This document shows positions 1 through 3,636 of a stretch of DNA of 35,054 nt, piece by piece. This DNA comes from Clostridia bacterium (GTDB taxonomy: Bacteria; Bacillota; Clostridia; Christensenellales; Borkfalkiaceae), in assembly GCA_021202395.1 (NCBI GenBank), contig JAJQDC010000015.1, positions 75,350 to 110,403 on the forward strand, given 5' to 3'. The position numbers and the translations under genes are program-made. Each line of letters starts with the position of its first letter. Position 1 is the stretch's first letter. Below the pieces are notes generated by a model. The model searched no databases and was not told the origin of the DNA. It saw only the letters and a program-made list of their open reading frames with translations.

Positions 1-1650
1 ACGCTTGTAAGCGATGTGCAATCAAAGAACGCATTCTCGCCGATAGAAGTTACGCTGCCGGGGATGGTTACGCTTTCAAGCGATGTGCAATCAAAGAACG
101 CATTCTCGCCGATAGAAGTTACGCCGCTGCCTATGGTTACACTTTCAAGCGATGTACAATACCAGAACGCATGGGTACCAATGGAAGTTACGCCGTTGCC
201 AATGGTTACACTTTCAAGCGATATGCAACCATAGAATGCATAATCGTTAATAGACGTTATATTTTCTATAGTTATATCCGTGGCAAGCGTTCCGCTAAGA
301 TATAAATTACCAGCGGAATACAAAGGATTGGCAGCATTATCACCAAACGAAATACTTGCCCACTGGGAAGCTGTGCCATTGTAATATACGCTTGTAAGCG
401 ATGTGCAACCATAGAACACAGAACTGCTGATAGAAGTTACGCTGTTGGGTATGGTTATGCTTGTAAGCGATATGCAACCATAGAACGCAGAAGTGTCTAT
501 GCTTGTGCAAACACTGTCGTCTTCGAATACAACGCTTGTTATATTAGGTGCATAACCTCTTGAAAAATAATAAAGATAGAACAGATAAGCAGGAATTTTT
601 GTTACGTTTGCGCCTATTGTTACCGTTATTCCGTCGCCGCTTTGCCCTGCGTAAGCGAATACATAATTATTTCCAGATAACTCATCCATTGCCGTTGCGT
701 TAAAGTTAATCACTGTTAGGGCGGTGCAACCATAGAACGCATAATCGCCGATAGAAGTTACGCTTGACGGTATAGTTATGCTTGTTCCCATATAGTAAGC
801 AAAAGCGTAACTGCCTATTTCCGTTATGGTTGGATTATTGTCCCATATTATTTCTGCCGTGCAACCATAGAACGCATAATTACCAATAGAAGTAACGCTG
901 TTTGGTATGGTAACGCTTGTAAGCGAGGTGCAACCATAGAACACATAATCATTAATAGCTGTTATACCTTCTAACGTTATATCGATAGCAAGCGTTCCGT
1001 TAAGATATAAATTACCCGTGGAATACAAAGGATTAGCATAACTATCATTAAATGTAATACTTGCCCACTGGGAAGCCGTGCCACTGTAGTATACACTTTC
1101 AAGCGAGGTGCATTTACTGAATGCCCCTTCACCGATAGAAGTTACACTGTCGGGTATGGTAAAACTTGTAAGCGATGTGCAATAATAGAACGAATATTCA
1201 CCGATAGAAGTTACGCCGTTACCTATAGTTACGCTTGTAATGTTTGTGCAGTTATAGAACGCGCCGTAAAGGATATTGCCGCCCGTTATTGTTACCGTTG
1301 TCAATGTAGTGGGTATATAATACGTTGTGTATTTAGAGCTACCACTATCATAATACTGCTTCGTTGAAGTGCCGCCCGTATAATTGCTTGTGCCAAAGAT
1401 ATAGCCGAATAATGTTGACTTTGACGCGCTTGTCGCGCTTGCGCTTGAACCTTCAAACGGCAGGGTTATGCTTACAAGAGAAGAACAGCCTGCAAAGGCA
1501 CCGCTGCCTATTGATGTTACGCTATCGGGAACATAAATGCTGATTATTTGCGTCTGTCCGCTGAATGCACTACTTGCTATTGCCGTTACAGGCAAATTAT
1601 TGTAAGTTGAAGGAATAACAATATCCGTATCGGTACATTCGCCTATACCG
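1..1650 (-). repeat. 69-bp (23-codon) LRR tandem repeats within the surface lipoprotein gene
   Basis: Period-69 repeats encode the LRR units. Bases 10-55 and 79-124 are identical over 46 bases. A larger block of about 165 bp (about 245-410) recurs at about 949-1115; both copies encode a NGTASQWASI/SGTASQWASI segment followed by NPLYS.GNLYL. This points to internal duplication, with potential for length variation by recombination. Confidence 0.85.
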
Positions 1651-3374
1651 CTTACGGTATAATATGTTTTGTCGGATGAAAGGGTAAATTTAAGCCCTTC
1701 GCTCGGTTTTTTCATACCGCAAACGGTGCATATATTATCTTCGCCGTAAGAATGTTCGCCGGTTGCCGTAATAGTTAATGTTTCTCTGCTGATTTCCTCG
1801 CCGCAAATAGAACAATAAACCACACTTTCGTATGAGCCGTTTTTACCGCAAGTACCTTCAACGATATTCTCAGCGACCGCTTCCGCGGGGGTATGACTTC
1901 CCAAGGCGTAAATAGTTTTACTTTCCCTACTTATTTGCTTGCCGCACACATAGCAATAAACTACGCTATCATACGAACCATCAACTAAGCAAGTTGCTTC
2001 AACAACATTTTCCTGCACCGCATCTGCAGGGGTATGTGATGCGGGTATGGTTGCTGCTTCACGGCTTAATTCTACACCGCAAACAGAACAATAAATTACA
2101 ATATCGTATGAGCCATCGGTAGTACATGTGGCTTCAACAAGATTTTCTGTTGCAGATATTGTTATAGGAACATGTTTTCCTGTAGCTGCAATAACTGTGT
2201 CGGCAAGCTCGATTTCGGTTGCGGCTTCGCTGTCAGAAAAATATTTTTCACAGCCGGAGCAGTACCAATAACCAATGTTACCGTCCGCGCCGCAAGTGGC
2301 AGACTGAGGCTCAACGTATGTTAAAGAATGGGTGTGCGTAGTACCGCTATCGCCGGAGCCGCCTTCGGTTGAGCCGCCCGATATGTCTGCCAACTTGCCG
2401 TACACTATATAAATATCCGTATCGGTATCGGTAGCGGAATAGCCTTCTATACCGTAAATATATAAACCGGAATCGTTATACCCAAAGGCAAGCATCGACA
2501 TATCTGTTGCCGCCTGTTCATCAGTCCTTGAACTAAGGCTATCTTCTAAATTATAAATATATTGTATGTATTTGCAGTTGCTGACAACTAATTTATAGCC
2601 AGAAAATTCTACACTGCCGCTGTATTGAATAGTACCATCATCATAATTTACCGCAAGCGAAGTGCACTCTGCTATGGTATAATTAAATGAAATTGTAACT
2701 GCATTTATTTCAATGCCGCTATAAGTAATGCCCTGAAAACATTCACCTGTACCATCAGAATTAAAAATAACGGTAAGTGAAACAGTAAAGCCTTCGGAAC
2801 TTAATTCATCCGACATTCCGCCAGATACTGTAGTACCATTTAAGTAGAATGTTATTTCACCGGAATAAAGGTCAAAGGTTTTATCAGCATAAGCAAAGGT
2901 AGTCTCTGTAGAGCCGCCTTCAGTTGAACCGCCTTCAGTGGAACCACCTTCTGTAGAGCCACTTTCAGTGCTGCCACCTTCTGTAGAGCCGCCTTCAGTA
3001 CTGCCACCTTCAGTACTGCCACCTTCAGTGCTGCCGCCTTCCGTACTACCACCTTCTGTAGAACTGTCGCCGGAACCGCTGCTGCCGGAATCAGTACTAC
3101 CAGTGCCAGTGGCGGGAATTACCGTTTCTGACTGGCTGATTTCGGTTTTACCGTTTGAGTCAGAAAAGTACTTACCGCAGCCTGCGCAATACCAGTACTC
3201 GGTGTTGCCGTCGGTCGTTTCTGTTGCGGCATTTTCTTCGTAATGGGTCAATGTGTGCGTGTGTTCATCTGTAAGTGTGGTTGTATTTGTAAACAAGTCG
3301 CACGCAGCAAAGCCGATACAAAGACACACAGCAGACATGATTGAAAGCAAGATAATTAAAATCTTTCTTTTCAT
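1..3374 (-). CDS. BspA-like leucine-rich-repeat lipoprotein (C-terminus beyond window)
   Basis: The frame is open from an ATG at 3374 to the left edge (1,124 codons, no stop seen), so the C-terminus is missing. Residues 1-25 form a lipoprotein signal (MKRK, hydrophobic core, GFAAC with Cys25). Next comes a Cys module (about 40-80, WYCAGCGKYFSDS), ten Ser-Thr-Glu-Gly-Gly repeats (about 105-154), a beta-rich segment (about 158-325), four more Cys modules with HxH/CxxC spacing (about 347-562), and from about 580 onward BspA-type LRRs of 23 residues (TSIGxxAFxGCTSLTSVTIP, LRR_5 type). AAGGAG lies 12 bases before this ATG; an in-frame ATG at 3395 overlaps that site and is less likely. Family knowledge: BspA-like proteins are surface adhesins or binding proteins. 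Inference: exposed on the outer face of the membrane. Ligand unknown. Confidence 0.9.
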   Translation of the reverse strand, partial: MKRKILIILLSIMSAVCLCIGFAACDLFTNTTTLTDEHTHTLTHYEENAATETTDGNTEYWYCAGCGKYFSDSNGKTEISQSETVIPATGTGSTDSGSSGSGDSSTEGGSTEGGSTEGGSTEGGSTEGGSTEGGSTESGSTEGGSTEGGSTEGGSTETTFAYADKTFDLYSGEITFYLNGTTVSGGMSDELSSEGFTVSLTVIFNSDGTGECFQGITYSGIEINAVTISFNYTIAECTSLAVNYDDGTIQYSGSVEFSGYKLVVSNCKYIQYIYNLEDSLSSRTDEQAATDMSMLAFGYNDSGLYIYGIEGYSATDTDTDIYIVYGKLADISGGSTEGGSGDSGTTHTHSLTYVEPQSATCGADGNIGYWYCSGCEKYFSDSEAATEIELADTVIAATGKHVPITISATENLVEATCTTDGSYDIVIYCSVCGVELSREAATIPASHTPADAVQENVVEATCLVDGSYDSVVYCYVCGKQISRESKTIYALGSHTPAEAVAENIVEGTCGKNGSYESVVYCSICGEEISRETLTITATGEHSYGEDNICTVCGMKKPSEGLKFTLSSDKTYYTVSGIGECTDTDIVIPSTYNNLPVTAIASSAFSGQTQIISIYVPDSVTSIGSGAFAGCSSLVSITLPFEGSSASATSASKSTLFGYIFGTSNYTGGTSTKQYYDSGSSKYTTYYIPTTLTTVTITGGNILYGAFYNCTNITSVTIGNGVTSIGEYSFYYCTSLTSFTIPDSVTSIGEGAFSKCTSLESVYYSGTASQWASITFNDSYANPLYSTGNLYLNGTLAIDITLEGITAINDYVFYGCTSLTSVTIPNSVTSIGNYAFYGCTAEIIWDNNPTITEIGSYAFAYYMGTSITIPSSVTSIGDYAFYGCTALTVINFNATAMDELSGNNYVFAYAGQSGDGITVTIGANVTKIPAYLFYLYYFSRGYAPNITSVVFEDDSVCTSIDTSAFYGCISLTSITIPNSVTSISSSVFYGCTSLTSVYYNGTASQWASISFGDNAANPLYSAGNLYLSGTLATDITIENITSINDYAFYGCISLESVTIGNGVTSIGTHAFWYCTSLESVTIGSGVTSIGENAFFDCTSLESVTIPGSVTSIGENAFFDCTSLTS
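2913..3062 (-). repeat. Pentapeptide STEGG linker repeat (10 units)
   Basis: Ten consecutive 15-bp units encode Ser-Thr-Glu-Gly-Gly (one reads STESG), followed by STETT. The low-complexity acidic linker sits between a Cys module and the beta-rich domain and probably acts as a flexible spacer. Codons differ between units, so it is not a perfect DNA repeat. Confidence 0.9.
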
Positions 3375-3511
3375 AAGCCAAAATTTCTCCTTCATAAATT
3401 TTTTTTGCAGACTTTGTCAGTTATTTGTGGTAACGTTTTACTTATGGTAAAAAGCATAAATAAAGCGCCCCAATCAGGGACGCCTGCACTAGTATCCCAC
3501 GATTGTTTTTT

Positions 3512-3601
3512 GGCGCTACAATATTTTCTGGAATGCAGATATAAGGATACTAATATGCCTGTATAGTATCCGCATTCTAAAAAATATTAACTTGTAGCAC
3601 C
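3512..3601 (-). promoter_or_regulatory. Long hairpin at the 5' end of the LRR lipoprotein leader
   Basis: The two arms pair through GGYGCTACAA, TATTTT, GAATGC and GGATACTA, with asymmetric bulges and a loop of about 11 bases. The hairpin starts at the predicted transcription start. The inner strand TTAGTATCC can alternatively pair with GGGATACTA at 3490-3498 further along the leader, which is followed by a GC-rich hairpin at about 3466-3484 (GCGUCCC/GGGGCGC with one G-U pair) and a U-rich stretch. This arrangement resembles a riboswitch or attenuator, but no known class is recognised. Confidence 0.5.
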
Positions 3602-3607
3602 AATTTG

Positions 3608-3636
3608 ATTTTACCACAACTTTAATTTAAATTCAA
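3608..3636 (-). promoter_or_regulatory. Sigma-A promoter of the LRR lipoprotein gene
   Basis: Minus strand: -35 TTGAAT (3631-3636), 17-bp spacer, TGTGG before the -10 TAAAAT (3608-3613). The predicted start near 3601 coincides with the base of the leader hairpin and leaves an untranslated leader of about 227 nt. Confidence 0.65.

Follow-up and report, generated by a model that had tools for sequence, protein, structure and literature searches.

The minus strand of the window (the whole 35,054-nt stretch of Clostridia bacterium DNA that was analysed) carries, ahead of an LRR lipoprotein gene, a structured leader that probably (we put this at roughly 70%) belongs to an undescribed family of orphan, riboswitch-like transcription attenuators that act in cis and are found in its order mainly on surface-protein genes. 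That the leader is structured and covaries among homologues is well supported by sequence comparison; a function as a switch is inferred. Computation shows overlapping helices, conserved with compensatory changes (A:B being the weakest), as well as the promoter and the terminator; 'riboswitch' is used here as a candidate label.

Architecture of the leader in the window

An earlier note on this DNA had described hairpin arms, three short strands (GGATACTA, TTAGTATCC and GGGATACTA) and a GC hairpin with a U-rich tail, all of which are present on the minus strand. Read 5′ to 3′, that strand holds a promoter-like site, a long hairpin, strand B, a terminator hairpin with its U-tract and an LRR_5 lipoprotein gene. 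The individual features are as follows, with the evidence in brackets:

3608..3636, minus: promoter-like site TTGAAT-17 nt-TAAAAT, with TG before the -10 (extended -10) (motif scan and homologues)
3510..3603, minus: leader hairpin P1-P2-P3 (folds; compensatory changes over 100 distinct homologues)
3593-3603 with 3510-3520, minus: P1 (fold prediction)
3588-3592, minus: 5′ loop of the leader hairpin (fold prediction)
3572-3587 with 3521-3536, minus: P2, with a one-nt internal loop inside (fold prediction)
3564..3571, minus: A′, the P3 5′ arm GGATACTA (sequence; partner-swap test)
3545..3553, minus: A, the P3 3′ arm TTAGTATCC (partner is A′ or B, by sequence and energies)
3537-3544, minus: 3′ bulge, after A
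3495..3505, minus: antiterminator 5′ strand CAATCGTGGGA (B:C hairpin energy; swap test 0/5000)
3490..3498, minus: B, GGGATACTA, which competes with A′ for A and also contributes to the antiterminator 5′ strand (swap, alignment-free and column tests)
3482..3488, minus: E, TGCAGGC, between B and C (alignment of own-genome copies)
3477..3483, minus: C, GCGTCCC, terminator 5′ arm (terminator scan, fold, covariation as helix 6)
3471..3480, minus: antiterminator 3′ strand TCCCTGATTG, overlapping the terminator (fold energies)
3465..3471, minus: D, GGGGCGC, terminator 3′ arm (terminator scan, fold)
3456..3464, minus: U-rich terminator tract (sequence; U-run shared by homologues)
3456-3485, minus: terminator hairpin and U-tract as a whole
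3406..3412, minus: F, GTCTGCA, ahead of the Shine-Dalgarno sequence; complement of E, one of the pairs being G-U
3387..3392, minus: Shine-Dalgarno sequence AAGGAG (sequence)
3..3374, minus: regulated gene, encoding BspA-type LRRs after a lipobox signal peptide, ATG at 3374, running off the window

The outer hairpin arms were checked as 3592-3603 with 3510-3521 (minus strand). Since the promoter-like site ends at 3608 and thus leaves 4 nt before the hairpin, the transcript should start at about the hairpin base, as the earlier note had proposed. The regulated gene has a lipobox signal peptide at its N-terminus and matches Pfam LRR_5 (E 9e-94); at 2900-3080 it also contains short near-repeats, seen by eye, that code for a Gly/Ser/Thr-rich linker (approximately residues 98-158).

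The 201-nt leader has a minimum free energy of -64.2 kcal/mol, compared with -41.2 ± 4.1 in 200 dinucleotide shuffles (z -5.7, no shuffle being as low). Four helices compete within it, namely: P3, formed by A′:A (GGATACTA/TAGTATCC); A:B (TAGTATCC with the GGATACTA of GGGATACTA); B:C (CAATCGTGGGA/TCCCTGATTG); and C:D. Their computed energies are -8.3 (P3 hairpin), -9.3 (A:B duplex), -12.6 (B:C hairpin) and -15.1 kcal/mol (C:D hairpin). The B:C antiterminator pairing is an addition to the two helices and the terminator described earlier. The claim that strand A can pair either with the strand before it (A′) or with the one after it (B) is borne out by the duplex energies and by the swap and alignment-free tests presented below; the P3 tip is one of two equal predictions, given that the free fold of the window leader has the same energy as the C:D fold with P3 (-53.8 kcal/mol) and draws the tip otherwise than A′:A. 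An A:B fold without a pseudoknot is much worse (-35.7 vs. -53.8 kcal/mol), so A:B would require a pseudoknot. The GC hairpin with its U-rich tail (3463-3485) has 9 pairs, 6 of them GC, and is the one such site in a 601-nt region whose shuffles predict 0.4.

With P3 in place, the whole window leader comes to -51.2 kcal/mol with B:C and -53.8 kcal/mol with C:D, i.e. near balance, and among the transcript lengths sampled, those of 130, 134 and 138 nt fold with the antiterminator and those of 142 and 151 nt with the terminator. Such near-equal outcomes in the window leader, together with a hairpin at about the 5′ end, would suit an element with no dedicated signal, either a constitutive partial terminator (giving low or cell-variable surface-protein expression) or an mRNA-stabilising 5′ hairpin. 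We consider this unlikely, as the A-B complementarity is kept among homologues though a plain terminator needs none.

Homologous leaders and their pairings

A blastn search with the leader against 60 relatives returned no match outside the source genome (1/61) because the stems diverge, and a short pattern, then a covariance model, were needed. In the genus sample of 93 genomes (Ca. Coproplasma by inference), the short pattern matched 17 times in 7 genomes, and its reversed control 6 times in 5. The genus is named from loci of its genomes whose hit coordinates and scores coincide with those on contigs named Coproplasma (L062 with L197, L059 with L206). Of 13 places outside the source genome that were inspected, ten (in four other genomes) were kept, while L040, L043 and L048 were discarded by eye as chance. 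Model R1 was built on 12 leaders and model R2 on 103 matches. R1 matches at least 41 of the 93 genus genomes. R2 matches at least 92 of 396 order genomes (at least 32 of 142 genera) and at least 57 of 391 class genomes (at least 38 of 222 genera), 52 of the 57 lying outside the order. All these counts are lower bounds, as at most 35 candidates per genome were scored with R1 in the genus and at most 8 with R2 in the order, class and phylum. In the phylum sample (398 genomes, R2, up to 8 candidates scored per genome) the source genome alone matched; this sample includes at least 14 same-class genomes without a match. The covariance search of homologous leaders that the earlier note had suggested was thus successful in the genus, the order and the class.

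Removal of five of the 99 genus matches (three were opposite-strand matches to hairpins already counted, and two repeated a single place) leaves 94, of which 93 are distinct. The leaders examined further comprise these 94, 53 that come either from other genera within the order or from named genomes of unstated kinship (the order set), and 31 from other orders. Of the 66 named stretches found by pattern scan, 60 were scored with R1, which matched 55 (9/10 and 46/50). Records of Ca. Borkfalkia and Ca. Gallimonas carry the pattern, and R1 confirmed leaders in L167, L170, L190 and L209 and none in the pattern-bearing record L174. One leader (L185, 991-1136) belongs to a contig whose title, Ca. Scatousia excrementigallinarum, would make for an unexpected host; the contig is perhaps misbinned.

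In the source genome, where blastn finds partial paralogues, the covariance models identify six full copies, all of which precede genes for lipobox signal peptides as judged by reading the N-termini. The basal stems of these copies diverge in sequence and are still complementary; E is invariant in five aligned copies, while the sixth (L091) differs. The same genome also contains, at L006 (1501-1540), an isolated promoter-region copy that has neither hairpin nor terminator. Elsewhere, full-length leaders stand in tandem, 179-249 nt from start to start, at nine loci (L110, L121, L137, L176, L177, L183, L190, L193 and L207), and a subtype whose apical loop is A-rich and which has UUUUU downstream occurs at L114, L124, L262, L265, L270, L271, L284 and L295.

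Across 100 distinct leaders, 93.1% of the cells of the nested structure are paired, compared with 64.9% after shuffling, in an alignment fitted to that same structure. In this set, 32 of the 33 nested pairs show double changes, double-changed cells number 890 vs. 277 in shuffles, and when the structure is shifted by 1-3 columns, no more than 50.4% of the cells are paired. The pairs of the covariance models do not include A:B and B:C. In a partner-swap test of 85 leaders below 75% identity, P1, P2, P3, A:B, B:C and C:D all pair better with their own partner (each 0/5000). The same result is obtained for five of the helices with 27 leaders below 55% identity and with 16 below 48%, A:B giving 2/5000 and 51/5000, respectively; A:B is the weakest of the six. 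Ten control pairings are mostly unremarkable (e.g. A with C, 261/5000 at the loosest threshold; the P3 5′ arm with B, 183/5000 at the middle one). The control of the P1 5′ arm with C gives 1/5000, 52/5000 and 423/5000 from the loosest threshold on, and because it reached 1/5000, the swap-test figures must be somewhat inflated by relatedness.

An alignment-free comparison of the hairpin interior with B gives -11.55 for own and -8.91 for swapped partners (0/5000, 140 leaders), and A:B is also at 0/5000 with 80 leaders and with the 42 most diverse; when the letters of B are shuffled, z is 0.2, -1.7 and 1.5 (140, 80 and 42 leaders). By alignment columns, A:B is 81.8% paired vs. 79.2% shuffled and has 27 double-changed cells vs. 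12 (0/500), while neither its pairs with double changes (182/500) nor its pair types (137/500) are unusual. For B:C, the values are 82.9% vs. 74.7% paired, with 299/500 for pairs with double changes and 231/500 for pair types. The variation of both helices probably lies largely in register and bulges, which columns miss. The weakness of A:B by columns counts against attenuation. On the whole, homologues keep both alternatives, with paired changes, in agreement with the riboswitch- or attenuator-type alternative pairing that had been proposed for the window.

Other pairings were considered. A second pseudoknot helix, between the apical loop and the stretch after B, is convincing by eye in some leaders and was rejected at 1491/5000, 1557/5000 and 247/5000 (140, 80 and 42 leaders); the apparent loop pairing of the A-rich-loop subtype likewise failed this general test. 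E:F gives 0/5000 with 85 leaders and is weak among diverse ones (72/5000 with 27 and 83/5000 with 16); F directly precedes the Shine-Dalgarno sequence in some homologues, and many have no adjacent F. By eye, P1 often retains ACACAA/UUGUGU although it is a stem, and the internal loop recurs beside the possible pseudoknot, the stem sequences being strongly variable.

Promoters, downstream genes and hairpin exchange

Promoter-like sites in the window region are not above chance (3 vs. 2.3 expected), and support for the promoter comes from homologues. Of 176 leaders (one further leader has no upstream sequence), 155 have an extended -10 (TGnTAnnnT) in the 20 nt that precede them, compared with about 8 in shuffles and 3 in a stretch farther upstream; by set, it is found in 85/92 (genus), 44/53 (order set) and 26/31 (other orders). 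For 151 of these 155, the distance from its end to the start of the model match is 2-3 nt, so that the RNA 5′ end would lie near the base of P1. At the leader 3′ end, a U-run (at least 6 T in 8) is present in 170 of 177 leaders. The first ORF starts within 130 nt downstream in 147/177 (86/94 in the genus, 38/52 in the order set and 23/31 in other orders).

Lipobox and hydrophobic-start calls, made with a simple custom rule, identify a lipobox in 56 of the 86 genus first ORFs and another hydrophobic N-terminus in 20. In the order set, 19/38 have a lipobox and 7 another hydrophobic start; in other orders of the class, the corresponding numbers are 1/23 and 3, and among 136 other ORFs of the same loci, 7 and 25. 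Pfam matches of 120 of the 142 first genes include LRR_5 in 29, zinc ribbons in at most 7, Listeria-Bacteroides repeats in 6 and LytTR response regulators in 2. The tie to lipoprotein genes is hence strong in the genus, partial in the order set and nearly absent in the other orders. The different downstream genes outside the order also weigh against the attenuator reading.

A hairpin scattered without context, which had been named as the mark of a mobile palindrome, was not seen. We regard it as highly improbable that the leader is such a palindrome, merely located upstream of genes: multiple copies, a near-identical leader stretch in two families and hairpin and tail histories that sometimes differ would fit it, but the extended -10, the U-run and the nearby ORF accompany most leaders, and B:C and C:D covary themselves. 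Narrow probes found no match in viral contigs (three exact leader patterns) or in phage and plasmid records (one probe, the L281 stretch).

The near-identical stretch is that of L281 and L283 (1400-2600), where the leader and about 1.2 kb are approximately 99.5% identical in genomes of two families, reflecting recent transfer or misbinning. The hairpins of L055 (source genome) and L057 are 97% identical and their tails 72-74%, while several source-genome pairs show the reverse, with the hairpin less alike than the tail (e.g. 67% and 86%). In genomes with at least three leaders, the nearest tail lies in the same genome in 12/48 cases and the nearest hairpin in 4/48 (about 4% by shuffled labels). 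Strong similarity of hairpin over tail occurs in 2 of 4172 between-genome pairs, and the reverse in 8 of 106 within-genome pairs. These comparisons may lend mild support to a general exchange of hairpins between species. A bolder proposal is a Clostridia-wide portable promoter-plus-switch cassette, mainly on cell-surface genes in its home order, with the hairpin as an exchangeable sensor whose various alleles could adjust how individual surface proteins respond to one shared signal; we think this improbable as it stands.

Known RNAs, candidate signals and a possible mechanism

In line with the earlier note, the leader matches no class in Rfam 15. Gathering scores give 0 matches in the window and, in 38 homologous loci (18 and 20), just three tRNAs and one 5S rRNA, all outside the leaders. 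With permissive settings, the window leader and 11 loci yield nothing but sub-threshold matches besides tRNAs. Neither the T-box nor the c-di-GMP riboswitch model matches in any of these scans. Cyclic di-GMP is an unlikely signal, since 10 of 12 leader-bearing genomes, the source genome included, gave no GGDEF match (PF00990; the two others have it) in mostly incomplete assemblies, and its model does not match. A leader peptide starting at E was also rejected: NTG is present there in 69 of 93 genus leaders (24 lack it), and the ORFs from these 69 stop after 4 to 54 codons, the longest being limited by the stretch examined, so that ORF length is unconserved. This test covers ORFs that start at E.

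A 2017 study is said to list 224 motifs. No description of the leader was found in the literature covered. The parts consulted of PMC8040213, PMC11109978 and PMC8632094 contain no labelled description of the leader, an unlabelled match in a motif list being possible.

The leader combines an intrinsic terminator with a mutually exclusive antiterminator, both conserved, as is general for attenuators. SAM-I type riboswitches terminate transcription with anti-antiterminator logic, and the leader resembles them in that a sensor strand competes for the antiterminator strand, which itself competes with an intrinsic terminator; it differs in having one long hairpin rather than a junction, no Rfam match and no metabolic gene association seen. 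The ZTP, preQ1 and fluoride riboswitches are pseudoknots with strand-displacement platforms, and in the leader, too, termination may be decided by a loop or bulge strand that pairs farther downstream, although layout and sequence are different, no Rfam match is found and the pseudoknot is a predicted one. A long 5′ hairpin with internal loops followed by an antiterminator/terminator in Bacillota recalls T-boxes; unlike these, the leader has no cmscan match and precedes mostly surface-protein genes rather than aminoacyl-tRNA or amino acid genes. Competition of antiterminator and terminator is shared with amino-acid leader-peptide attenuators, to which the Phe_leader score is sub-threshold (17.9 bits vs. 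a gathering score of 55), but a conserved leader ORF at E is lacking.

We propose that transcription would start at about the base of the long hairpin, whose P3 tip holds strand A, and that strand B would emerge as RNA polymerase advances. In the ON state, A would be kept in P3, so that B pairs with C, the terminator is blocked and the lipoprotein gene is read. In the OFF state, A would pair with B and P3 would open, leaving C to pair with D and transcription to stop. With P1 and P2 retained, A:B would form a pseudoknot, and the unpaired 3′ bulge beside A could serve as a toehold from which B starts to displace P3. The hairpin would then act as the sensor and A:B as the anti-antiterminator, and the balance between P3 and A:B would be tipped by a small molecule, a protein or a mere folding race.

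Two versions of attenuation invoke a dedicated signal. The leader could be a true small-molecule riboswitch, in which a metabolite or ion would be bound directly by a core of P1, the 5′ loop and P2 along with the pseudoknot made by A:B. This is plausible, if short of probable: an internal loop recurring by the possible pseudoknot, the nine tandem loci and the wide distribution favour it, whereas the regulated genes share the cell surface and not a pathway, the stems vary, no Rfam riboswitch matches and c-di-GMP is unlikely. Riboswitches are frequently arranged in tandem (PMC9481103, as far as the part consulted goes).

In the other version, an RNA-binding protein on the hairpin would tip the balance. 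TRAP, PyrR, ANTAR and LicT-type proteins act as RNA-binding attenuation regulators, and those of their RNA sites that are within Rfam gave no match. Set against this, the frequent retention of ACACAA/UUGUGU in P1 and the suitability of unrelated surface genes for a global regulator leave protein control conceivable, if somewhat doubtful.

Taken together, the leader is best read as a transcription attenuator that is present in multiple copies and in many Clostridia families. The named records are mostly of uncultured bacteria, and the targets in the home order include BspA-type LRR lipoproteins. Orphan RNA switches with strong covariation are a frequent route to new signals and biology, and if the leader is a true switch, it would offer a handle on surface change in these bacteria.
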